Shown here in pieces: positions 20,244 to 32,240 of a stretch of DNA of 33,223 nt. Made by a program: the position numbers and the translations under genes. How positions within the stretch are numbered: position 1 is the first letter of the stretch; every line of letters starts with the position of its first letter. The stretch covers positions 1 through 33,223 of the forward strand of contig NZ_VRUA01000029.1 of the NCBI RefSeq assembly GCF_008017535.1, in the 5' to 3' direction. The DNA is from Ottowia flava. GTDB taxonomy: Bacteria > Pseudomonadota > Gammaproteobacteria > Burkholderiales > Burkholderiaceae_C. The notes beneath the pieces are model-generated. The model did no database searches, was not told the DNA's origin, and saw only the letters and a program-made list of their open reading frames with translations.

Positions 20244-21218
20244 ATGCGCACCCGCATCACCGACATGCTCGGCATCCGCTACCCCATCGTGCAGGGCGGC
20301 ATGCACTTCGTCGGCCTGGCCGAGCTGGCCTCGGCCGTGTCCAACGCCGGCGGCCTGGGCATCCTGACGGCGCTGACCCAACCCTCGCCCGCGGCCCTGG
20401 CCGAAGAAATCGCCCGCTGCCGCGGCATGACGGACCAGCCGTTCGGCGTGAACCTCACCTTCCTGCCCGTGCGCACGCCGCCGGACTACCCCGGTTACGT
20501 GCGCAGCATCATCGACGGCGGTATCAAGGTGGTCGAAACCGCCGGCAACAACCCGCAGCAGTGGATGCCCCTGCTGAAAGAAGCGGGCATCAAGGTGATC
20601 CACAAATGCACCTCGGTGCGCCACGCGTTGAAGGCCGAGGCGATTGGCTGCGACGCCGTCAGCGTGGACGGCTTCGAATGTGGCGGCCACCCGGGCGAGG
20701 ACGATGTGCCCAACTTCATCCTGCTGCCGCGCGCGGCCGAACAGCTGAAGATCCCCTTCATCGCCTCGGGCGGCATGGCCGACGGCCGCTCGCTGGTGGC
20801 GGCCATGGCGCTGGGCGCCGAAGGCATGAACATGGGCACGCGCTTCATCGCCACGAAGGAAGCGCCGGTGCACGAGAACGTCAAGCAGGCCATCCTGCAA
20901 GCGACCGAGTTGGACACCCGCCTGGTGATGCGCCCGCTGCGCAACACCGAGCGCGTGCTGAACAACGCCGGCGTCGAACGCCTGCTGGCCAAGGAAAAGG
21001 CGCTGGGCGACAAGATCACGTTTGCCGACATCATTGACGAGGTCGGCGGCGTCTACCCCAAGGTCATGAAAGACGGCAACCTGGACGCCGGCGCCTGGTC
21101 CTGCGGCATGGTGGCCGGTTTGATCCACGACATCCCCACGGTGCAGGAGTTGATCGAGCGCACCATGGCCGAAGCGCGCCAACTGGTCACACAGCGGCTG
21201 GCCGGCATGGTGGTCTGA
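20244..21218 (+). CDS. Nitronate monooxygenase-like NAD(P)H-dependent flavoprotein
   Basis: This 324-residue TIM-barrel FMN enzyme belongs to the 2-nitropropane dioxygenase/nitronate monooxygenase family. The start (MLGIRYPIVQGGMHFVGLAE), the GGHPGE segment (from residue 147, H149), and the FMN phosphate loops ASGGMADG and MGTRF (197-201) are all present. Family members oxidise alkyl nitronates or act as NADH:quinone reductases or enoyl-ACP-reductase-like enzymes, so the substrate is open. GGAGAT precedes the ATG. Being divergent from an IclR gene, it is probably under that regulator and linked to the acid-degradation cluster. Confidence 0.9.
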   Translation: MRTRITDMLGIRYPIVQGGMHFVGLAELASAVSNAGGLGILTALTQPSPAALAEEIARCRGMTDQPFGVNLTFLPVRTPPDYPGYVRSIIDGGIKVVETAGNNPQQWMPLLKEAGIKVIHKCTSVRHALKAEAIGCDAVSVDGFECGGHPGEDDVPNFILLPRAAEQLKIPFIASGGMADGRSLVAAMALGAEGMNMGTRFIATKEAPVHENVKQAILQATELDTRLVMRPLRNTERVLNNAGVERLLAKEKALGDKITFADIIDEVGGVYPKVMKDGNLDAGAWSCGMVAGLIHDIPTVQELIERTMAEARQLVTQRLAGMVV

Positions 21219-21422: not shown

Positions 21423-23406
21423 TCACGCGCCGTCACCGGCAAACGCGCTCCAGCGCGCGTGCCACGGCTCCGGTCCGCTGGGCGCGTGGGGCGCAGCGGC
21501 GGTCACCGCGATCCCCGTCACCTTCGCGAACTCGGCGGCCGGCACGGTGCCGGTGGTCAGCAGCTCCTGCACCAGCGCGCGGAACGCGTCCCCGTGCGTG
21601 CGCAGCAGCGCCGTCGCGCGTTCGGCTTCGGCGCACATCAGCGCTTCAGCTTCGGCGTTGGTTGGCTGGACATCGGTGTTGATGTCCTCGTCCTGCTGCG
21701 TGGTCACGTCGGTGCGCGACACGCGGCTGCCGAAACCGTGGTGGCGCACGTAGGCGATCGCGTTGGCGGTCGCCTGTTTGCGGTCGGCTTCGGCCCCGGT
21801 GGTGGCCGCGTCTGGACCGAACACCAGCGCTTCTGCCGCGCGACCGGCCAGGCTCACGCAGATCACGTCGCGCAGCATGCGGCGCGACCAGGCTTTCTGC
21901 GGCGCGTAGCTGGCGTACCCCCCGTTGAACGAGGCGACGTTGATGCGCACCTCCTGCGGCGCGGTGCCCATCAGCACCGCGTACACCAGACCGTGACCGG
22001 CCTCGTGCACCGCCAGCAGGGTGCGAAAGTCCAGCGAGGCGCGCTCGCGCAGGCCTTCCAGCTCGAACACCACGGGCAGGCGCTGCTCGGCGTCGCCCCA
22101 GCGCACGCACAGGTGCTTGCGGTCATCACCCAGCGTCAGCGGCAGCACGGCGCCGGGCGGCGCCCCGCGCTCGATCGCCCACAGCGCGGCGCGCACCAGG
22201 CTCCCACCCAGCACGCCGTGCACGGTCGAGAACACCGGGCGCGTCCCCTGGGCCGGGAACACGCCGTTGGCGTAGATCTCGTCCAGCACCGGCTGCGCGA
22301 CGTCGATGCGCAGGCCCGAACGCACCGCGACCTCGTCCACGTACTGGGCGCAGGTGCGGGCGATCAGGCGCTGGTACGCCGAGCGCGACAGCGACGGGTA
22401 GATCACGTGCTGGTTGCCCAGCCGCGCCACCTGCTCGGGGCGAAAGCGCGACCCGAGTGCCTTCTTCACGTCGATCACCGACAGGCGCTGGCTCATGGCG
22501 TGGAAGACGTCGGCGTCGGTGTCGCAGTCTTCTACGCGCTCGGCCAGGTCTTCGTACATCTCGTCCAGGTTGCCGGTGACGATGATCAGCAGCTTGCTGT
22601 AGTCGGTCTGCCAGCGCGCTGGGTCGGCGCGGAAGGCATCGACTTCCGCCTGCACCTGCTCAGGCGACCAGGCCATCAGCTCGGTCAGCGGCACGTTCAG
22701 CTTCAGCGTGCGCTGCAGCTCGCGCGCCTCCCAGGCGCCCAGCCTGAACTTGCGGGGGCGCGGCTTGGCGGGCGCTGGCGCTGCGGTGGCGGCGTCGGCG
22801 CTGGGCGCCGGCGTGCTGTCCGTGTCGTCGGTGTCGCTTTGGCGTTCGTCCAGCTCGAACTGGGCCGACGCGGTGCGGTATTCCAGATCGCGCAGGAAGC
22901 TCAACGCGGGCGACAGCCGCCCGTCCGACAGCAGCCCACACGTCCTGGTAGCGCGCGACCTTGATGTCCTGGCGGCGGTTGTCGATGGTGCGGTAGCGCT
23001 GGAACTCGTCCAGTAGCAGCACCCCGGGCTCACCCTCGTCGATGCCCGATTCGCCCAGCATCCCCGAGATCGAGTCCGGCGTGTACCAACCGGCCCCGTT
23101 GCTGAAGCCGTCCATCTGCACTTCGACATAACGGTCGTAGAAACCCAGCTTTTGCACCAGCAGGCGCGTCAACTGCGTTTTCCCGGTCCCCGTCAGGCCC
23201 CACAGGCACACGATCACCGGGCGGGCGATCAGCTGCGGCATCACGTACCAGGCGCGCACGGCGTCGATGACGCGGTCGATCACGTCGTCGATGCCGAAAA
23301 GCTCCTGCTTCAGCTCGGCGGCGATGGTCGCCAGCTGGGCCTGGCGCTCGGCCAAGTGGTCGTCCAAAGGTTCCCGCGGCAAAAAGCGGGTGTCGTTCAA
23401 ATCCAT
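21423..23406 (-). pseudogene. Clp-type AAA+ unfoldase fused to an M41 zinc protease, frame broken once
   Basis: Two overlapping frames join into one 660-residue protein if one base is skipped in the GGG run at 22935-22937 (DVW in frame one continues as LLSDGRLSP in frame two). Walker A is GLTGTGK76T, Walker B is LLLDEF (D133, E134) and sensor 1 is VTGNLDE. A Clp/HSP100-type small domain follows (SRFRPEQVARLGNQHVIYP, then GTRP with the sensor-2 arginine). The C-terminal half is an M41 peptidase: H467-E-A-G-H471, third zinc ligand D541 in TTGAEADRKQAT, and LAGRAAEALVFG. There is no membrane segment, unlike FtsH. An acidic/Pro-Ala linker lies between the Walker B and sensor 1 regions. Intact domains on both sides suggest a recent break, a frameshift product or a sequence error. 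The first frame alone gives a 248-residue truncated ATPase. Confidence 0.82.
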
Positions 23407-23407
23407 G

Positions 23408-23656
23408 TCAGTCTTTCCAATCTTGTTGCATGGCCCTTTGCAGGGCCATGCGGTCCGCGCGGCGCTGGGCGCCCTGGCTGCGGATGTGGCGGCCGGCGCC
23501 GCTGCTGGCGCTGCGCAGCGCCAGCGCCTGGGCCACGTGGTTGCGTGGCGGCGGTGCGGGCAGCTGCAGCGCCAGGGGCGCGCGCATGCGGCGAAGTTGT
23601 TTCACGGTGGCCCGCGCGCCGCCGCTGGCGGCGCGCGAGAAGGTTTTGGCACTCAT
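23408..23656 (-). CDS. Small, strongly basic protein coupled to the AAA+/M41 protease
   Basis: This 82-residue protein is not recognised. It has 13 Arg and 3 Lys against 3 Asp, a Pro-rich centre (QLPAPPPRN) and a probable C-terminal helix (RRADRMALQRAMQQDWKD). There are no cysteines, signal peptide or membrane segment. The start at 23656 has GGAG at good spacing. Its stop and the protease start are one base apart (TGACATG), so translation is coupled and the two products probably act together. Possible roles are adaptor, substrate or nucleic-acid-binding partner; the sequence does not decide. An in-frame GTG at 23746 would add 30 residues encoded by the structured leader and is less likely. 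Confidence 0.65.
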   Translation of the reverse strand: MSAKTFSRAASGGARATVKQLRRMRAPLALQLPAPPPRNHVAQALALRSASSGAGRHIRSQGAQRRADRMALQRAMQQDWKD

Positions 23657-23671
23657 GTGCGCTCCAAAAGC

Positions 23672-23758
23672 AAAAAACCCCGGCAACAGAATCTGGGCCG
23701 AGGGCTTTTGCGAAGCCAGCGGCTGGACAGTGATGAAGACGATCACTCCCAGCCGGGG
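23672..23758 (-). promoter_or_regulatory. Folded leader RNA with terminal T-run before the basic-protein gene
   Basis: Read on the minus strand, GCCCCGGC-type arms (23758-23752 with 23684-23678) close a multi-branched fold directly followed by six T (23677-23672). Inside are an AGTGAT/ATCACT hairpin (23729-23747), a CCAGC/GCTGG dyad (23716-23726) and a GGCTT/AAGCC hairpin (23703-23717). The T-run ends a few bases before the ribosome-binding site of the next gene. It could be a terminator for the cupin gene upstream or an attenuator controlling the protease pair. Confidence 0.5.
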
Positions 23759-23956
23759 CTGAAATGGGAGCGCGTCAGGTGTGCGTGAAGTGCGTCAAGG
23801 ACATATCTCAAAACCTCCTGTGGGGGGCGTGGCCCGCAAGGTCATTCGTTGCGGACGGCGTGATCGCCAGGAGAAAGGAAGGGGCGGATTGTGGGCAAAG
23901 GCGCAGCGTTTGCCAAGTGCAATGTGGTAAACGTGCGACGATTTATGAATAAGAAA

Positions 23957-24073: not shown

Positions 24074-24523
24074 TCACTTCTTCTTCGGCACGATGTCCAC
24101 CGCCCACAGCTGAGCGGTTTCGCTGTTGCTCGGGTTGGTGAACCAGTGGCTGGTTTCAGCGGTTTCCTGCCAATGCTCGCCGGTGCGCAGCACGCGCTGG
24201 TCGTTACCGCGGCCTTCGATCACCATGCCTTTGACGACCAGCACGATGCCGGGCCGTCCTGCGTGCGGGTGCACGGCGGCACCGCCGCCCGGTGCCAGTG
24301 TGAGCAGGCGCGCGCGCAGGTCGTAGTCGGCCATGCTGCCTGGCATCTTGTGTGCGGCCAGGTCGACCAGGCCGACAGGGGCATCGCCGCTCAGCCCGCT
24401 GTTCTTGGCGGGTGCCGCCACGACGCTGGATTCGCGCGTTGTCGAGCAGGCGGCCAGGCCAAGCGCGAGGCCCAGGGCCAGCGAGACGGTCGCCGTGCGG
24501 CGGAGAAGGCGGGCTTGAAACAT
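24074..24523 (-). CDS. Cupin-domain lipoprotein
   Basis: This 149-residue protein has a lipoprotein signal (RRTATVSLALGLALGLAAC, lipidated C26) and one small cupin domain (about residues 60-145). The metal-binding pattern is partly visible as HPHAGRPGIVLVVKGM, with a later HW near the C-terminus. It should sit in the cell envelope. Small cupins bind metals or small ligands, but no specific reaction can be assigned. A GGAG about 9 nt before the ATG supports the start. It is transcribed divergently from hrpA. Confidence 0.85.
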   Translation of the reverse strand: MFQARLLRRTATVSLALGLALGLAACSTTRESSVVAAPAKNSGLSGDAPVGLVDLAAHKMPGSMADYDLRARLLTLAPGGGAAVHPHAGRPGIVLVVKGMVIEGRGNDQRVLRTGEHWQETAETSHWFTNPSNSETAQLWAVDIVPKKK

Positions 24524-24629: not shown

Positions 24630-24639
24630 CCCCACCCCC

Positions 24640-27600
24640 ATGACCGTTTCGCCCGACACCGCAGCGCCTGCCGCGCCCCTGAAGATATCGTTTCCCGACA
24701 ACCTGCCGGTGTCGGCCCGCCGCGCCGAGATCGAAGACGCGCTGCGCGCCCACCAGGTGATCATCGTGTGCGGCGAAACGGGTTCGGGCAAGACCACGCA
24801 GTTGCCCAAGATCGCACTGGCCATGGGCCGCGGGCGGCTGAACGCCAAGCCGGGTGAGCGCGGCCGCCTGATCGGCCACACGCAGCCGCGCCGCATCGCC
24901 GCGACCAGCGTGGCCAAGCGCATCGCCGACGAGCTGAACACGCCGCTGGGCGAGGTGGTGGGCTACAAGGTGCGTTTTGGCGACCGGCTGTCCAAAGACG
25001 CATCGGTCAAGCTGATGACGGACGGCATCTTGCTGGCCGAAACGCAGACCGACCCGCTGCTCAAAGCCTACGACACGATCATCATCGACGAGGCGCACGA
25101 GCGCAGCCTGAACATCGACTTTCTGCTGGGCTACATCCGGCAGATTCTGCCGCGCCGGCCGGATTTGAAGGTCATCGTGACCTCGGCCACGATCGATGCG
25201 GATCGGTTTGCCAAGCACTTTGAGGGGAAGAATGGTCCCGCGCCCGTTTTGATGGTGTCGGGCCGCACCTTTCCCGTCGAGCAGCGCTACCGCCCCTTCG
25301 AAGAATCGCGCGACCACGATCTGAACGACGCCATCGCCGATGCCGTGGACGAGCTGTGGGCGGGCGGCCTGGCGCCGGGCCGCCCCAAGCCAGGCACGGC
25401 CCCCTCGGGGGGCAGCGAAGACGCGCAGCGCGGAGCGTGGGGGCGAGTAGCTTCCGGCGACATCCTGGTCTTTCTGCCGGGCGAGCGCGAGATCCGCGAA
25501 GCCGCCGATCACCTGCGCAAACACCTCGCGCACAGCCCGGTGCTGCGCAGCGCCGAGGTGCTGCCGCTGTTCGCGCGCCTGTCGCAGGCCGAGCAGGACC
25601 GCGTTTTCGAGTCGCACGGCGCGCCGCGCATCGTGCTGGCCACCAACGTGGCCGAGACTTCGCTCACGGTGCCGGGCATCAAGTACGTGATCGACCCTGG
25701 CACGGCGCGCGTCAAGCGCTATAGCTACCGCAGCAAGGTGGAGCAGCTGCTGGTCGAGCCGGTGAGCCAGGCAGCGGCCAACCAGCGCGCCGGCCGGTGC
25801 GGGCGCGTGTCGGACGGCGTGTGCATCCGGCTGTACGACGAAAAGGACTTCAGCGGCCGCCCGCGCTTTACCGACCCGGAAATCCTTCGCTCGTCGCTGG
25901 CTGCCGTCATCCTGCGCATGAAAAGCCTGCACCTGGGCGGCGAAGGCGGCCGGGTAGAAGACTTCCCGTTCCTGGATGCGCCGTCAGGCCGCGCGATTGC
26001 CGACGGCTTTCAGCTGCTGCTGGAGTTGGGCGCGGTGGATGAGGCGCTGGAGTTGACGCCGCTGGGCCAGGAGCTGGCGCGCCTGCCGCTGGACCCGCGC
26101 GTGGGCCGCATGATCTTGGCCGGGCGCGAGCGTGGCGCATTGCGCGAAGTCCTGATCATCGCCGCCGCCTTGAGCGTGCAGGACGTGCGCGACCGGCCGA
26201 TGGACAGCCAAGCCCAGGCCGACCAGGCGCACGCCAAGTTCGACGACGAGAAGAGCGAATTCAGCGGCTACCTGCGTCTGTGGAAATGGCTGCACGACGC
26301 GCGCGGCGGCCAGGTCGTCAAGACCCGCGCCGAAATGGCGGCGCGCGAAGGCGGGCAGGGCGGCCAGCGCCGCACACCCGCCAACGTGGCCACGCTGCCG
26401 GTGGCGCAGCGCGCCGCCCTGGCACTCGCGCAGGCGCGTGATGCGCTATCGAAAGAGAAGCTGCCCGCGCAAGTGGCTGTAGGGCGGGAAGCACAAAACA
26501 CTTCAAACCACGGTGACGCGCCTGCACACAAGCTGAGCAACCGCCAGTGGGAAAACCTGCTGCGCCAGAACTTCATCAACATCCGCCGCGTGCGCGAATG
26601 GCGCGACATCCACACCCAACTGCACACCGTGGTGGCGGAGCACAAGTGGAAGGAAAACGCGCAGCCCGCCGGCTACGAGGCGCTGCACAAATCGCTGCTG
26701 ACGGGGCTGCTCGGCAACGTCGGCTGCAAGCTGGAAGGCGAAGACGCGCAAAGCGGCGAATACCTGGGCGCGCGCGGCATCAAGTTCTTCCGTCACCCGG
26801 GCGCGCACCTGTCGAAAAAGCCGGGCAAATGGATCGTCTGCGCCGAGCTGGTGGAAACCACGCGCCTGTTCGGCCGCGGTATTGCGGCGATCGAGCCGCA
26901 GTGGCTGGAAGAGGTGGGCGGGCATTTGCTGAAGACCCAACTGCTCGACCCGCATTGGGAAAAGAAAGCGCAGGACGTGGTCGCGCTGGAGCGCGCCACG
27001 CTGTACGGCCTGCTGGTCTACAACGGACGCCGCAAGAGCTTTGGCCAGGTCGACCCGGCGGGCGCGCGCGAGTTGTTCCTGCGCGAAGCGCTGGTCGGCG
27101 GCGAATGGCCGGAAGAATGGGCGCGCCGCCTGCCGTTTCTGGCCGATAACGCGCGCACCATCGCCAAGGTCGAAGAGCTGGAACACAAGAGCCGGCGCCA
27201 GGACGTGCTGGTCGACGACGAGCTGATCTACGCCTTCTACGACGCGCAGGTGCCCCGCGGCATCAGCAACGGGCGCGACTTTGAAAAATGGTGGCGCGAA
27301 ACCAGCCGTGCGCAGCCCACGCTGCTGCGCTTGACGCGCGAAGAACTGATGCGCCACGAAGCGGCCGGCATCACCACCAGCGCCTTCCCCAAGATGATCC
27401 GCCTGGGCGGCGTGGACTGCGCCGCGACCTACCTGCACGAACCCGGTGACGCCAAGGACGGCCTGACGGTGACGGTGCCGCTGTTCGTGCTGAACCAGGT
27501 CAGCGACGCGCGCGCCGAATGGCTGGTGCCCGGCATGCTCAAGGACAAGATCCAGGCGCTGCTGAAAAGCCTGCCGCAACGGCCGCGCAGCCGCTTCGTG

Positions 27601-28854
27601 CCGCTGCCGGAGAGCGCCGCGCGCCTGAACGAGACGCTGGGCACGCCCGAGGCCTTTGGCCACGGCAGCCTGGTCGACGCGCTGCTCAAGCAGGTGCGCG
27701 ACGCGACCAGCCTGGACGTCAAACGCACCGATTTCAAGCTGGACATGCTGCCGGCCCACCTGTTCATGAACTTCCGCGTGGTCGACGAGCATGGCCGCCA
27801 GCGCGGGCAGGGCCGCAACCTGGCCGCGCTGAAGGCCGAGCTGGGCGGCGAGGCGCGCGGCGCCTTCCAGGCCCTGGCAGGTCTGAAGGCGGCCAAGGTT
27901 GAGCTGGCCAGCCCAGGCAGCGACGATTATCAACAAAAACCCGCGCCAGCCCTACAACCACCTGCGCAAGCAGCTAGTAAATCAGAAGCAAGCAGCGCCG
28001 CCGTGGTTGACGCCCGTCACACGCGTTGGGACTTCGGCGAACTGCCCGAGCTGATGGAAATCCGCCGCAAGGGCCAGACGCTGGTCGGCTTCCCGGCGCT
28101 GACGGACGCGGGCGACGCGGTCACGATCGAGGTGTTTGACGAGCCCGAAGTCGCCGCCACACGCCACCGCGCCGGCCTGCGGCACCTGTTCGCGCTGCAG
28201 ATCAAGGACGCGCTGAAGTACCTTGAGAAAAACGTGCCCGACCTGCAGAAGATGGCCGTGGCTTACCTGCCGCTGGGCACGGCCGAAGAGCTGCGCCAGC
28301 AGATCATCGACGTCGCGCTGGACCGGGCCTTCCTGGGCGAGCCGCTGCCCGCGAACGAAGCCGACTTCACGCGCCGCGTGGACGAAGGCCGCGCGCGGCT
28401 GACGCTGATCGCCAACGAAGTCGCGCGCCTGGCCGGCGTGATCCTGACCGACTACGCCGCCGCCGCGCGCAAGATCAAGGACACTAAGAACGCGCCCGAC
28501 GCCACCAGGGACGCGGCCGAACAACTGCAACGCTTGATGCCGCGCCAGTTCTTGATCAACACCCCGTGGCCTGCGCTGCAGCACTTCGCGCGCTACCTGA
28601 AGGCCATCACCCTGCGCCTGGAAAAATTCCGCGCCGACCCCGCGCGCGACGCCCAGCGCATGGCCGAAGTGCGCGCGCAAGACCAGCGCTTTTGGCGCCT
28701 GGTGGCCGAACGCAAGGGCGTGCAGGACGCGCGCCTGCAAGAGCTGCGCTGGCTGCTGGAAGAGCTGCGCGTCAGCTTCTTCGCGCAAGAGCTGCGCACG
28801 CCGCAGCCGGTCAGCGTGAAGCGGCTGGAGAAGGTGTGGGGGCAGGTCGCTTGA
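24640..28854 (+). CDS. hrpA: ATP-dependent RNA helicase HrpA
   Basis: This 1404-residue DEAH-box helicase is about 100 residues longer than E. coli HrpA. Motif I GETGSGKT is at residues 45-52 and motif II DEAH at 150-153. SATID is motif III, and ANQRAGRCGRVSDGVC is motif VI. The winged-helix/ratchet, OB-fold and the long DUF3418-type C-terminal region follow. Three stretches absent from the family look repeat-derived: residues about 252-271, 602-624 and 1097-1116. All keep the frame open. HrpA acts on RNA and stalled ribosomes in the cytosol. The ATG at 24640 is supported by the -10 box just upstream and by family alignment; an earlier in-frame ATG at 24352 lies antisense to the cupin gene. 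Confidence 0.93.
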   Translation: MTVSPDTAAPAAPLKISFPDNLPVSARRAEIEDALRAHQVIIVCGETGSGKTTQLPKIALAMGRGRLNAKPGERGRLIGHTQPRRIAATSVAKRIADELNTPLGEVVGYKVRFGDRLSKDASVKLMTDGILLAETQTDPLLKAYDTIIIDEAHERSLNIDFLLGYIRQILPRRPDLKVIVTSATIDADRFAKHFEGKNGPAPVLMVSGRTFPVEQRYRPFEESRDHDLNDAIADAVDELWAGGLAPGRPKPGTAPSGGSEDAQRGAWGRVASGDILVFLPGEREIREAADHLRKHLAHSPVLRSAEVLPLFARLSQAEQDRVFESHGAPRIVLATNVAETSLTVPGIKYVIDPGTARVKRYSYRSKVEQLLVEPVSQAAANQRAGRCGRVSDGVCIRLYDEKDFSGRPRFTDPEILRSSLAAVILRMKSLHLGGEGGRVEDFPFLDAPSGRAIADGFQLLLELGAVDEALELTPLGQELARLPLDPRVGRMILAGRERGALREVLIIAAALSVQDVRDRPMDSQAQADQAHAKFDDEKSEFSGYLRLWKWLHDARGGQVVKTRAEMAAREGGQGGQRRTPANVATLPVAQRAALALAQARDALSKEKLPAQVAVGREAQNTSNHGDAPAHKLSNRQWENLLRQNFINIRRVREWRDIHTQLHTVVAEHKWKENAQPAGYEALHKSLLTGLLGNVGCKLEGEDAQSGEYLGARGIKFFRHPGAHLSKKPGKWIVCAELVETTRLFGRGIAAIEPQWLEEVGGHLLKTQLLDPHWEKKAQDVVALERATLYGLLVYNGRRKSFGQVDPAGARELFLREALVGGEWPEEWARRLPFLADNARTIAKVEELEHKSRRQDVLVDDELIYAFYDAQVPRGISNGRDFEKWWRETSRAQPTLLRLTREELMRHEAAGITTSAFPKMIRLGGVDCAATYLHEPGDAKDGLTVTVPLFVLNQVSDARAEWLVPGMLKDKIQALLKSLPQRPRSRFVPLPESAARLNETLGTPEAFGHGSLVDALLKQVRDATSLDVKRTDFKLDMLPAHLFMNFRVVDEHGRQRGQGRNLAALKAELGGEARGAFQALAGLKAAKVELASPGSDDYQQKPAPALQPPAQAASKSEASSAAVVDARHTRWDFGELPELMEIRRKGQTLVGFPALTDAGDAVTIEVFDEPEVAATRHRAGLRHLFALQIKDALKYLEKNVPDLQKMAVAYLPLGTAEELRQQIIDVALDRAFLGEPLPANEADFTRRVDEGRARLTLIANEVARLAGVILTDYAAAARKIKDTKNAPDATRDAAEQLQRLMPRQFLINTPWPALQHFARYLKAITLRLEKFRADPARDAQRMAEVRAQDQRFWRLVAERKGVQDARLQELRWLLEELRVSFFAQELRTPQPVSVKRLEKVWGQVA
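25394..25452. repeat. Repeat-derived in-frame insertion 1 in hrpA
   Basis: CCCCCTCGGGGGGCAGCGAA followed by GCGCGGAGCGTGGGGGCGAG. It resembles a GC-rich interspersed repeat that I recall from Comamonadaceae intergenic DNA. It is translated as APSGGSEDAQRGAWGR between LWAGGLA and GDILVFLPG, where HrpA homologues have only a short linker. Confidence 0.65.
26444..26509. repeat. Interspersed repeat, copy 8, inside hrpA
   Basis: CGCTATCGAAAGAGAAGCTG, then CAAGTGGCTGTAGGGCGGGAAG and ACAAAACACTTCAAA, matching copy 1 in order and orientation. Translated in frame within hrpA as LSKEKLPAQVAVGREAQNTS. Confidence 0.75.
27930..27985. repeat. Interspersed repeat, copy 9, inside hrpA
   Basis: CAACAAAAACCCGCGCCAGC, then CCTACAACCACCTGCGCAAG and CAGCTAGTAAATCAG, the inverted orientation relative to copy 8. 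Translated in frame as QQKPAPALQPPAQAASKSE. Confidence 0.8.
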
Positions 28855-29228: not shown

Positions 29229-29517
29229 ATGCTGACTGTTGCGGCGGTCGTCCTGCTGTCGATGCTGTCCTGCGCGATGCAGTTTGCGTTGGAAATCGCG
29301 CTGGGCAACATCAGGCATGTGGAACAGGGCCGCCCACCCAAGGCCGGTGCTGCCGATGGTGCCGCTGACCTACGTCGTCGCGCTGTGGCTGGCGTCGCGC
29401 TACTTCCCGAGCGCTGGGCCCGCCGTGGTCTATGCGTGGGGCGGCGTGTCCATCCTGGTTCGCCTGGCGCTGCTGGTTCGTGCGCGCGGACGCTTGCGCA
29501 AGATGACGGATGGCTGA
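29229..29517 (+). pseudogene. Small membrane protein with a one-base frameshift
   Basis: From the ATG at 29229 (GAGGGCGG upstream), the frame gives MLTVAAVVLLSMLSCAMQFA and continues to GRPPK, a first hydrophobic helix and a loop. After one extra base near 29343 the other frame continues smoothly as PVLPMVPLTYVVALWLASRYF, then VVYAWGGVSILVRLALLVRA, giving two more helices and a basic end. Joined, this is a normal-looking three-helix inner-membrane protein of about 95 residues. The family is not recognised. As written, neither frame encodes the full protein. Genuine decay or a one-base sequence error are both possible. Confidence 0.6.
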
Positions 29518-29716
29518 GACGCTGAGCGTCGGCGACCAACGCGTAGCCAAGGCGCTGCCTCGACGGGCAGGAAAGCGTGCGCTTGGGGTGCCGGATCGCT
29601 GTGATTTCCGCGTCTGTCCTACGTCTTTCGATGGGTGCGGCTGGCGCGGCGCGCTCGGCCGGAAGCGCGAGATACCCGCATACTGCTCCCATCGCCGCAC
29701 CCATCAAGGACGCACC

Positions 29717-30358
29717 ATGCCCGTCGAAACCGTCAAGTCGGACAGCTGCACGATCGAATTTCACAGCGAACGCTGCATCCATGCCCGCAACTGCGTGCTC
29801 AGTCGGCCGGACGTGTTCGTGCCCAACGTGCAGGGCGCATGGATCCACCCGGAGCGCGCGACGGCCGAGCAGGTGCTGGAGCTGGCGCACAACTGCCCGT
29901 CGGGCGCGATCCAGTGCAAAAGGCCCGACGGCAGTGCACTGGAAACCGCGCCTGAGGTCAACACCGTCCGAGTGCGTGAAAACGGTCCGTTGGCGTTTCA
30001 CGCGCCTCTGGACGTCGCGCAAGACGCGGTCGGTTTTCACGCCACGCTGTGCCGCTGCGGGGCATCGCAGTCCAAGCCGTACTGCGACGGCAGCCACAAC
30101 AGCAGCGGCTTTCAGGCGACGGGCGAACCGCCGACGAAGCCTTCCGAGGCGCTGCCTCAGCGCGACGGCCCGTTGACGGTAACGCCGACGAAGAATGGGC
30201 CGCTGCATGTGCAAGGCTCGCTGGAAGTGGTCAGTGGCACGGGCCGCACCGTCAACCGCGTGACCGACACCTGGCTGTGCCGCTGCGGGCATTCGCAGAA
30301 CAAGCCTTTCTGTGACGGCAGCCACGCCAAATTCGGGTTTCAGGCGGACGGCGTCTGA
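29717..30358 (+). CDS. CDGSH iron-sulfur protein with N-terminal 4Fe-4S-like domain
   Basis: This 213-residue protein has three modules. Residues about 10-70 form a monocluster ferredoxin-like domain (RCIHARNC, PWI-like AWIHPERA, NCPSGAIQ; C20, C26, C60). Two CDGSH domains follow, each with the C-x-C-x8-C-x3-H ligand set: C112, C114, C123, H127 and C188, C190, C199, H203. CDGSH (mitoNEET-type) clusters are redox-active and labile; the bacterial proteins are thought to act in electron transfer or Fe-S handling. AAGGA precedes the ATG at 29717, and an upstream extension of the frame has no start signal. It stands alone between the broken membrane-protein gene and guaA. Confidence 0.9.
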   Translation: MPVETVKSDSCTIEFHSERCIHARNCVLSRPDVFVPNVQGAWIHPERATAEQVLELAHNCPSGAIQCKRPDGSALETAPEVNTVRVRENGPLAFHAPLDVAQDAVGFHATLCRCGASQSKPYCDGSHNSSGFQATGEPPTKPSEALPQRDGPLTVTPTKNGPLHVQGSLEVVSGTGRTVNRVTDTWLCRCGHSQNKPFCDGSHAKFGFQADGV

Positions 30359-30495: not shown

Positions 30496-30556
30496 TTTAA
30501 TGCTATTTATTAGATAGCTGCCCGCGCTGATCCACAGCGGGCCAGCGCTTGATTTG
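30496..30556. repeat. Interspersed repeat, copy 10
   Basis: AATGCTATTTATTAGATAGC, then TGCCCGCGCTGATCCACAGC and GGGCCAGCGCTTGATT. It lies in the 265-bp gap upstream of guaA and ends at a TAGAAT -10-like box (30557-30562), so guaA transcription may start at its border. Confidence 0.7.
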
Positions 30557-30623
30557 GCGTAGAATATCGGGTTTTCCCGGTCAGGGCCCCGCCGGCTCGT
30601 CCGCAACCCATAGCCTCCGCGCC

Positions 30624-32240
30624 ATGTCCCACGACAAGATCCTCATCCTCGATTTCGGCTCCCAGGTCACGCAGCTGATCGCGCGCCGCGTGCGTGAAGC
30701 GCATGTGCTGAGCGAAGTCCATCCCTGCGACGTGAGCAGCGAGTGGGTGCGCGAGTACGCCAAGGACGGGCACCTGAAGGGCATCATCCTGTCCGGCAGC
30801 CACGCCAGCGTGTACGAGGTGGACGACAAGGCGCCGGACGCTGTCTTCGAACTGGGCGTGCCGGTGCTGGGCATCTGCTACGGCATGCAGACCATGGCGC
30901 AGCAGCTGGGGGGCAAGGTCGAAGGCTCCCATCAGCGCGAGTTTGGTTACGCCGAAGTGCGGGCGCGCGGTCACACCGACCTACTGAAAGACATCGCCGA
31001 CTTCACCACGCTCGAAGGCCACGGCATGCTGAAGGTGTGGATGAGCCATGGCGACAAGGTGACCGAATTGCCGCCAGGCTTCAAGCTGATGGCCAGCACC
31101 GACAGCTGCCCCATCGCCGGCATGGCGGACGAGGCGCGCCATTTCTACGGCGTGCAGTTCCACCCCGAAGTGACCCACACGATCCAGGGCGCGGCGGTGT
31201 TGCAGCGTTTCGTGCGCGAGATCTGCGGCGCCAAGCCGGACTGGATCATGAAGGACCACATCGAAGAAGCGGTGCAGAAGATCCGCGAACAGGTGGGCGA
31301 TGAGGAAGTCATCCTGGGCCTATCGGGTGGGGTTGATTCGTCGGTGGCAGCTGCGCTGATTCACCGCGCCATTGGCGACCAGCTCACCTGCGTCTTTGTC
31401 GACCACGGCCTGCTGCGCCTGGACGAAGGCAAGATGGTGATGGAGATGTTTGCCGGCAAGCTGCACGCGCGCGTCATCCACGTGGACGCCAGCGAGCAGT
31501 TCCTCGGCCACCTCCAAGGCGTGGCGGACCCCGAACAGAAGCGCAAGATCATCGGCCGCGAATTCGTGGAAGTCTTCAAGGCCGAGGCGGCCAAGCTGAA
31601 AGCCGGCGGGCAGGGCCACAAGGGGGCGACCTTTTTGGCCCAAGGCACGATCTACCCCGACGTGATCGAGTCCGGCGGCGCCAAGAGCAAAAAGGCCGTC
31701 ACCATCAAGAGCCACCACAACGTGGGCGGCCTGCCGGAACAGTTGGGCCTGAAGCTGCTGGAGCCGCTGCGCGACCTGTTCAAGGACGAGGTGCGCGAGC
31801 TGGGCGTAGCCCTGGGCTTGCCACCCGAAATGGTCTATCGGCACCCGTTCCCAGGCCCAGGCCTGGGCGTGCGCATCTTGGGCGAGGTGAAGAAGGAATA
31901 CGCCGACCTGCTGCGCCGTGCGGACGCCATCTTCATCGAAGAGCTGCGCAACTTCCGCGATGAAGCCACCGGCAAGACCTGGTACGACCTGACCAGCCAG
32001 GCCTTCACCGTGTTCCTGCCGGTCAAGAGCGTGGGCGTGATGGGCGACGGCCGCACCTACGACTACGTCGTGGCCCTGCGCGCCGTGCAGACCAGCGATT
32101 TCATGACCGCCGACTGGGCGGAACTGCCGTATGCGCTCCTGAAGAAAGTGTCGGGCAGGGTGATCAACGAAGTGCGCGGCATCAACCGCGTCACCTACGA
32201 CGTCAGCTCCAAACCGCCGGCGACGATCGAGTGGGAGTGA
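30624..32240 (+). CDS. guaA: GMP synthase (glutamine-hydrolysing)
   Basis: This 538-residue enzyme converts XMP to GMP using ATP and glutamine, the last step of GMP synthesis. The N-terminal class I glutaminase domain has the nucleophile C85 in GICYGMQ and the His-Glu of FHPEVTH. The ATP-pyrophosphatase domain has the PP-loop SGGVDSS (residues 234-240). The C-terminal dimerisation domain ends [16 protein letters not shown], the universal GuaA ending. The ATG at 30624 begins the conserved [14 protein letters not shown]. guaB, its usual neighbour, is not upstream here. The 3' end of guaA is a known integration site for genomic islands, and the sequence character changes right after this stop codon. 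Confidence 0.97.

Follow-up and report, generated by a model that had tools for sequence, protein, structure and literature searches.

The window, by which we mean the whole stretch of 33,223 nucleotides of Ottowia flava DNA that was analysed, carries on its minus strand a gene whose product is probably a soluble, self-contained ATP-dependent zinc protease that unites a ClpB-D2-like motor and an M41 peptidase in one chain. The chain is made up of a ClpB-D2-like AAA+ motor lacking the N-domain and D1, a short beta linker and the M41 peptidase. If it assembles as FtsH and Clp do, six such chains would form a two-tiered hexamer in the cytosol, with the motor ring lying on the peptidase ring, where ATP hydrolysis would unfold substrates and feed their chains to the zinc sites for cutting. 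A roughly 100-residue insertion within the motor is a likely contact site for substrate or adaptor, and substrates may be chosen either by this insertion or by a small partner protein.

The gene occupies positions 21423-23406, as the original prediction had it, and the motifs listed in that prediction (Walker A and B, sensor 1, GTRP, HEAGH and an M41-type third zinc ligand) were all located on the minus strand. The reading frame of the window copy is broken once, near 22.94 kb, where two overlapping open reading frames of the minus strand (22660-23406 and 21423-23129) meet. The features of the gene are as follows.

22942..23406, minus strand: N-terminal piece of the protease gene, Clp-D2-type AAA+ large subdomain (Pfam and NCBIfam matches)
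23176-23199, minus strand: Walker A, GLTGTGKT, in the N-terminal piece
23005-23019, minus strand: Walker B, LLLDE, in the N-terminal piece
21423..22937, minus strand: C-terminal piece of the protease gene, in the other frame, from the helical insertion to the M41 peptidase (one frame in relatives)
22560-22586, minus strand: sensor 1, IIVTGNLDE (N invariant in 72 sequences)
22413-22448, minus strand: arginine-finger box, RFRPEQVARLGN, aligned with ClpB FRPEFINRID (R invariant in 72)
22236-22250, minus strand: sensor 2 box, QGTRP, aligned with ClpB GARP (GxRP invariant in 72)
21522..22025, minus strand: Peptidase_M41 domain (E value of 1.9e-21; Pfam 5.9e-21)
21993-22010, minus strand: VHEAGH, catalytic zinc site (HExxH invariant in 72)
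21780-21803, minus strand: TTGAEADR, its D being the third zinc ligand; aligned with STGASNDIK of E. coli FtsH (D invariant in 72)

The two pieces were queried separately in every search. The N-terminal piece matched the Pfam models Torsin (4.3e-07) and AAA (1.2e-05), and its best NCBIfam match was to the D2 part of ClpA (1.3e-06). The C-terminal piece, which runs in order through the helical insertion, sensor 1, the arginine finger, a Clp small domain with GTRP, a small beta linker and the M41 peptidase, matched Peptidase_M41 over the model cut-off (5.9e-21), and its best NCBIfam matches were to FtsH in the M41 part and ClpB in the small-domain part. Compared with an Ottowia relative, the N-terminal piece gave a dN of 0.04 and a dS of 0.42 (dN/dS about 0.10) and the C-terminal piece a dN of 0.11 and a dS of 0.48 (dN/dS about 0.22). 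Both pieces are thus under constraint, which suggests that the frame break is either a recent event or a sequencing error. A joined protein of 660 residues had been predicted; because the gene spans two frames, this length is only inferred for the window copy, and it lies within the range of 631 to 691 residues found in the relatives that have a single frame.

Conservation was assessed in an alignment of 72 sequences (21 bacterial and 51 viral) that share 21 to 74% identity with the Ottowia protein; four viral sequences (L044, L132, L133 and L136) and eight bacterial ones (L014, L017, L020, L023, L028, L030, L035 and L146) were omitted from it. Twenty-nine columns were invariant, including T72, G73, G75, K76 and T77 of Walker A, D133, E134 and Q136 of Walker B, N283 of sensor 1, the arginine finger R332, G391, R393 and P394 of sensor 2, and H471, E472, H475 and D545 of the zinc site. 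D545 was aligned with the Asp of STGASNDIK in E. coli FtsH, the third zinc ligand of that enzyme. Inspection of the motifs in each of 70 sequences showed variation at nearby positions in the most divergent ones, such as GKS in L136 and HEAAH in L093, which by our reading retain the catalytic residues. In HHalign comparisons the M41 half scored 137.8 against FtsH versus 13.0 to 18.2 against five other E. coli proteins, and PF01434 was matched in all 72 members. The FtsH family model TIGR01241 gave the Ottowia member 58 bits versus a curated cut-off of 600, over region 457-627 only.

The protein had also been predicted to lack membrane helices, and an N-terminal one was absent from all 72 members, in which the highest 19-residue hydropathy mean within the first 120 residues was 1.52. 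Of the E. coli controls, FtsH peaked at 2.22 (residue 1) and 2.32 (residue 102) and ClpB reached 1.07. Eight of the 72 members reached 1.6 anywhere in the chain, at residues 354-608.

AlphaFold2, given the 72-row alignment and the Ottowia protein as the query sequence, produced a model with a pLDDT of 90.4 and a pTM of 0.86, which superseded an earlier one from 24 close sequences (pLDDT 71.6). According to this model and the alignment with ClpB, the D2 N-terminal helix would open the chain and be followed by the AAA+ core, a largely helical insertion of ~100 residues at about 165-269, before sensor 1, a Clp small domain extending to about residue 416, a beta linker at 424-448 and the M41 peptidase from about residue 460. 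HHalign and the model agree that the chain begins at the D2 N-terminal helix, the N-domain and D1 being absent. With LLSDGR aligned with LQVLDDGR of ClpB, the ~100 largely helical residues split the pre-sensor-1 insertion, and in the model short strands flank them on both sides. Among the best 50 rows of a BFVD search no name combined a Clp motor with M41; the top rows were named FtsH, M41 or Clp, and several rows were nameless.

In known AAA+ unfoldases an aromatic residue of the pore loop grips the substrate. In the putative pore loop of the new family an aromatic residue was present somewhere in 57 of the 72 members and missing from the other 15, and its position was not fixed. We therefore considered that the motor may not thread substrates at all and may instead use ATP to switch a partner or the peptidase by a change of shape, making the protein an ATP-gated or regulatory metalloprotease. 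The large insertion before sensor 1 could fit such a role, as could the match of the Pfam Torsin model at 0.01 in 37 of the 72 members (residues 23-87 in the member shown), Torsins not being known to have a threading pore loop. We nevertheless regard gating as unlikely, given the aromatic residue in the majority of the loops and the joining of the motor to a ring-forming peptidase (that of FtsH), which is the usual arrangement of a threading protease. A self-contained unfolding protease remains the reading that we prefer for the chain itself.

Directly upstream of the protease gene lies a small gene with a conserved leader, for which the following features were recorded together with the other neighbours in the window.

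23408..23656, minus strand: basic partner protein of 82 residues, encoded immediately upstream of the protease gene; its C-terminal box HIRSxGAQRRADR is conserved
23657..23804, minus strand: conserved leader upstream of the small gene
23775-23804, minus strand: leader micro-ORF
within 23746-23761, minus strand: leader element, CAGCCCCGGCTG
3' arm at 23672-23686, minus strand: hairpin that resembles a terminator and carries a T run, immediately ahead of the small gene
20244-21215, 24077-24523, 24634-28851, 29510-30355 and 30549-32237: neighbour genes

The small protein gave nothing against Pfam beyond one weak match in one of nine members. By sequence pattern it was found in 39 of 58 sources, including L004 and L028, many of the remaining sources being short-flanked; by the same pattern it was absent from L010 (Hydrogenophaga), L022 (Polaromonas) and L019 (Rhodoferax). 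Among 399 genomes of the family the small gene occurred in 47: both genes were present in 36, the protease alone in 4, the small gene alone in 11 and neither in 348. The small gene thus accompanied 36 of 40 protease genomes versus 11 of 359 others (Fisher p of 6e-37, relatedness being ignored). In 33 of the 36 two-gene genomes the two matched regions shared a strand and were separated by -5 to 833 bases; in G673, G917 and G985 the small-gene match was weak and on another contig.

Upstream of the small gene, 24 of 27 distinct stretches contained a micro-ORF of 6 to 14 codons followed within 50 bases by GCCCCGGC, a count that has no chance control, and the complementary arm GCCGGGG was found in the same 24 stretches. 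L004, L005 and L195 had neither micro-ORF nor element. The arm is part of the terminator-like hairpin in the window and in most other leaders. In a consensus fold of nine leaders chosen from the 27, the element paired with the arm in all nine and CGGUUCC paired with the stretch preceding the start codon in most of them; 4 of the 15 pairs of this fold showed double changes. A competing long-range helix is seen in the leader beside the terminator-like hairpin. A search of Rfam gave no match to the window at the gathering score, and in four loci the matches at E values up to 1 were only tRNAs. The natural reading is that the leader would act as an attenuator.

The small basic protein encoded beside the bacterial protease, behind this structured leader, is a candidate adaptor, regulator or substrate. 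Its close linkage to the protease could also mean that the two genes form a switch in bacteria, a toxin-antitoxin-like or defence module in which the small protein is the specific substrate or inhibitor of the protease. Such a module would fit the 36 shared genomes, the 33 adjacent same-strand pairs, the patchy occurrence of the protease (40 of 399 family genomes) and the leader. The 11 genomes with the small gene alone, the 4 with the protease alone and the three loci lacking the small protein by pattern argue against it, as do the neighbours in the window and a PADLOC search. The neighbours were ordinary, comprising a nitronate monooxygenase, a cupin, a DEAD/DEAH helicase with DUF3418, a CDGSH iron protein and GMP synthase, and PADLOC returned only DolB (2.3e-06) and PDC-M37B (6e-06) for the AAA+ piece and Csx25 (0.0019) for the other piece. 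Across the window and 28 bacterial loci (eight of these 29 sources being short-flanked) the clusters recurring in more than seven sources were the protease, the small gene and frames overlapping these, and nothing else. We give the switch a low probability and favour a protease with a linked candidate adaptor, regulator or substrate.

The ATPase half had been predicted to be of the Clp/HSP100 kind, and it was the D2 domains of ClpE, ClpC and ClpB that it matched, not FtsH. When a profile of this half (44 sequences) was searched against the PDB, the best 36 places were all taken by Clp/Hsp104, led by ClpE (5.3e-20) and followed by ClpC, ClpB, Hsp104 and ClpA; one of these, 8xon_S, bears another molecule name, its sister entry 8xoo being described as a ClpC1 complex. 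The 37th match was Msp1 (2e-8), and FtsH was absent from the best 60 of the 316 matches. In HHalign comparisons with E. coli proteins, for which 67 of the 72 alignment rows were used, the AAA+ half scored 95.7 over 264 columns with ClpB, 59.9 over 263 with ClpA, 55.3 over 74 with ClpX, 49.6 over 76 with HslU and 60.9 over 117 with Lon (whose sequence was cut at residue 704), versus 50.8 over 98 columns with FtsH, N-terminal only. The alignment with ClpB covered its residues 552-835, and D2-type large and small subdomains were both present. At an E value of 0.01, ClpB_D2-small was matched in 40 of the 72 members, AAA_2 in 11 and the general AAA model PF00004 in 67. An AAA+ clade tree of 23 rows with very long branches mixed the HCLR and classic references and did not assign the motor to either.

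These results bear on whether the protein is simply a divergent FtsH that has no membrane anchor and whose classic-clade ATPase merely looks Clp-like. The M41 half and the order of AAA+ followed by M41 are those of FtsH, the PF00004 match covers the P-loop part in the member shown, and Foldseek placed FtsH chains first for the whole model (6gcn_C, E value of 1.0e-12, with a low TM by query of 0.35), with ClpB D2 chains lower and matching the AAA+ part only (4fcv_A, rank 42, TM by target 0.71). FtsH tops that list because the two-domain order is common to both proteins. Set against the PDB and HHalign rankings, the ClpB_D2-small matches and the invariant Clp-type arginine-finger and GxRP boxes, a divergent FtsH is very improbable. 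Judged by its profile matches, the AAA+ module resembles the Clp D2 (HCLR) kind more than the classic AAA clade.

As the original prediction required, dozens of homologues that have both halves in one chain were found, from bacteria as well as from viral contigs. Of 28 bacterial loci, 27 have Walker A and HEAGH together in a single open frame; 20 of the 28 loci (47 to 81% identity) came from one scan of GTDB genomes, which detects close relatives only, and 8 from a search of 60 relatives; L028 and L030 are apparently repeats of L004 and L005. In locus L035 the N-terminal part is missing, and L020 is truncated after HEAGH (487 residues); the length range given above is that of the 26 one-frame loci remaining without L020. 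The two-frame window copy might suggest an assembly or annotation artefact in which two unrelated genes were joined by chance, a notion with next to no probability that is refuted by these one-chain relatives, the most distant of which share 21% identity with the sequence in row one of the 72-row alignment.

A strong match was present in 7 of 28 genomes of the window's genus. A search at 1e-60 of the window's bacterial family, as grouped by the tool, gave matches in 40 of 399 genomes, covering 24 of 141 genera. In an order sample 2 of 399 genomes matched and in a phylum sample 2 of 398; both samples yielded one and the same pair, which includes the window's own genome. A class-wide search at an E value of 1e-20 gave matches in 259 of 274 genomes; among the matches listed, all started beyond query residue 400, in the M41 half, except those in the window's own genome and G150, which covered both halves. 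The protease is thus patchy and nearly confined to one family among the bacteria sampled. In G999 (C1:1163530-1165836) the protease lies in two matching pieces, like the window copy, and G845 has two copies on different contigs, C59 and C64. The window's own genome also has a second, short M41-like protein (L003, C27:1806-2105; 30.2 bits) in an open frame of 230 aa with no AAA+ half. Two plasmid proteins were set aside after inspection by eye: one from Caballeronia looks like an ordinary FtsH with membrane helices, and one from Rhizobium (L025:2735-4720) looks like an M41 half placed behind a different AAA ATPase. The Rhizobium gene adjoins metallophosphoesterase and hypothetical genes.

Two IMG/VR scans and a profile search of fetched loci yielded 55 non-redundant full-length viral proteins; duplicates with identical C-terminal 200 residues were removed before counting, and L102, which lacks its N-terminal part, L048, which runs off the end of its contig, and L134 were left out as not full length. 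Of their contigs, 34 were at least 100 kb and 18 at least 200 kb, the longest having 478,840 bases. No neighbour cluster recurred in more than 7 of the 55 loci. The Pfam model Terminase_6N matched 5 of 17 records in one set and 10 of 25 (9 over the cut-off) in another; with two records common to both sets, a large terminase was found on 15 of 40 distinct viral records and 25 gave no match. Because the same model also matched 6 of 14 control genomes of cells, the terminase matches support the viral setting without proving it. Searches of GenBank phages by tblastn with P0002 and the L047 and L056 proteins returned no record covering 80% of the query, and the family was therefore not found in named phages; the best places lay in the M41-bearing C-terminal part, the annotated ones being mostly FtsH (best 20 of 32 and of 30).

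In a tree of 73 proteins, 21 of the 22 bacterial rows and two short viral contigs formed one group with a support of 100, nested inside the viral diversity, and the remaining bacterial row, L146, was placed among other viral rows. The tree was made by a quick method and midpoint-rooted, with long branches, and phage to bacterium is taken as the likely direction of transfer. L039 and L040, short contigs filed as viral whose protease falls inside the bacterial clade, are counted among the 55 and may be bacterial DNA. Most of the diversity found resides on viral contigs, many of them very large, and one Burkholderiales lineage has the gene. Tentatively, and as a joint proposal of which we are less than confident, the family may be an additional type of ATP-dependent protease that, like FtsH and Lon, is self-contained. 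It would have arisen or spread in huge phages before Burkholderiales acquired it, and in these bacteria it would share an operon with a small protein, a dedicated adaptor or substrate, controlled by a leader RNA. The very large carrier contigs suggest that some huge phages bring their own cytosolic proteolysis, with possible roles in host remodelling or counter-defence.

In the review PMC7226402 FtsH belongs to the classic clade, Clp D2, ClpX/HslU and Lon are assigned to HCLR, and FtsH and Lon are the only ones said to have motor and peptidase in one subunit. According to PMC9020784 the FtsH family is anchored in the membrane. No description of a Clp motor with M41 was found in the literature searched, preprints and most subscription journals lying outside its coverage. 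The original prediction spoke of an independent invention and did not extend to the viral spread, the small partner gene or the leader. The pairing of M41 with a different AAA+ clade stands; since both halves are old domains, we would rather call it a separate pairing of known parts, one that is new to us and that may have arisen by a new fusion or by exchange of the ATPase of FtsH. An M41 peptidase would here be driven by the motor of another clade, which makes it possible to test if M41 depends on its own type of motor or can function with any ring that fits, and how a soluble M41 enzyme selects its substrates.

The new family differs from each of the known systems that it resembles. Torsins, whose model matches at 0.01 as described, are matched over residues 23-87 only in the member shown and are not known to have a peptidase, which is present here. 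The peptidase of Lon is of the Ser-Lys type, that of the new family is a zinc M41 peptidase, and the profile match to Lon was weaker than that to ClpB. What Lon has in common with the new family is an HCLR-clade motor with a peptidase in the same chain (PMC7226402). With the second AAA+ domain of ClpB, ClpA, ClpC and ClpE the family shares an end-to-end alignment, the arginine-finger FRPE..R and a small domain with GxRP, and with ClpB D2 also DGR at the start of the pre-sensor-1 region. Unlike these proteins it lacks the N-domain and D1, has a zinc peptidase of its own and an insertion before sensor 1, and its Walker B reads DExQ versus DEVEK in ClpB. With FtsH, m-AAA and i-AAA it shares an M41 peptidase with HExxH and a distal Asp, and AAA+ followed by M41 in one chain, whereas its motor resembles the Clp D2 (HCLR) kind, bears the ~100-residue insertion and is preceded by no N-terminal membrane helix.
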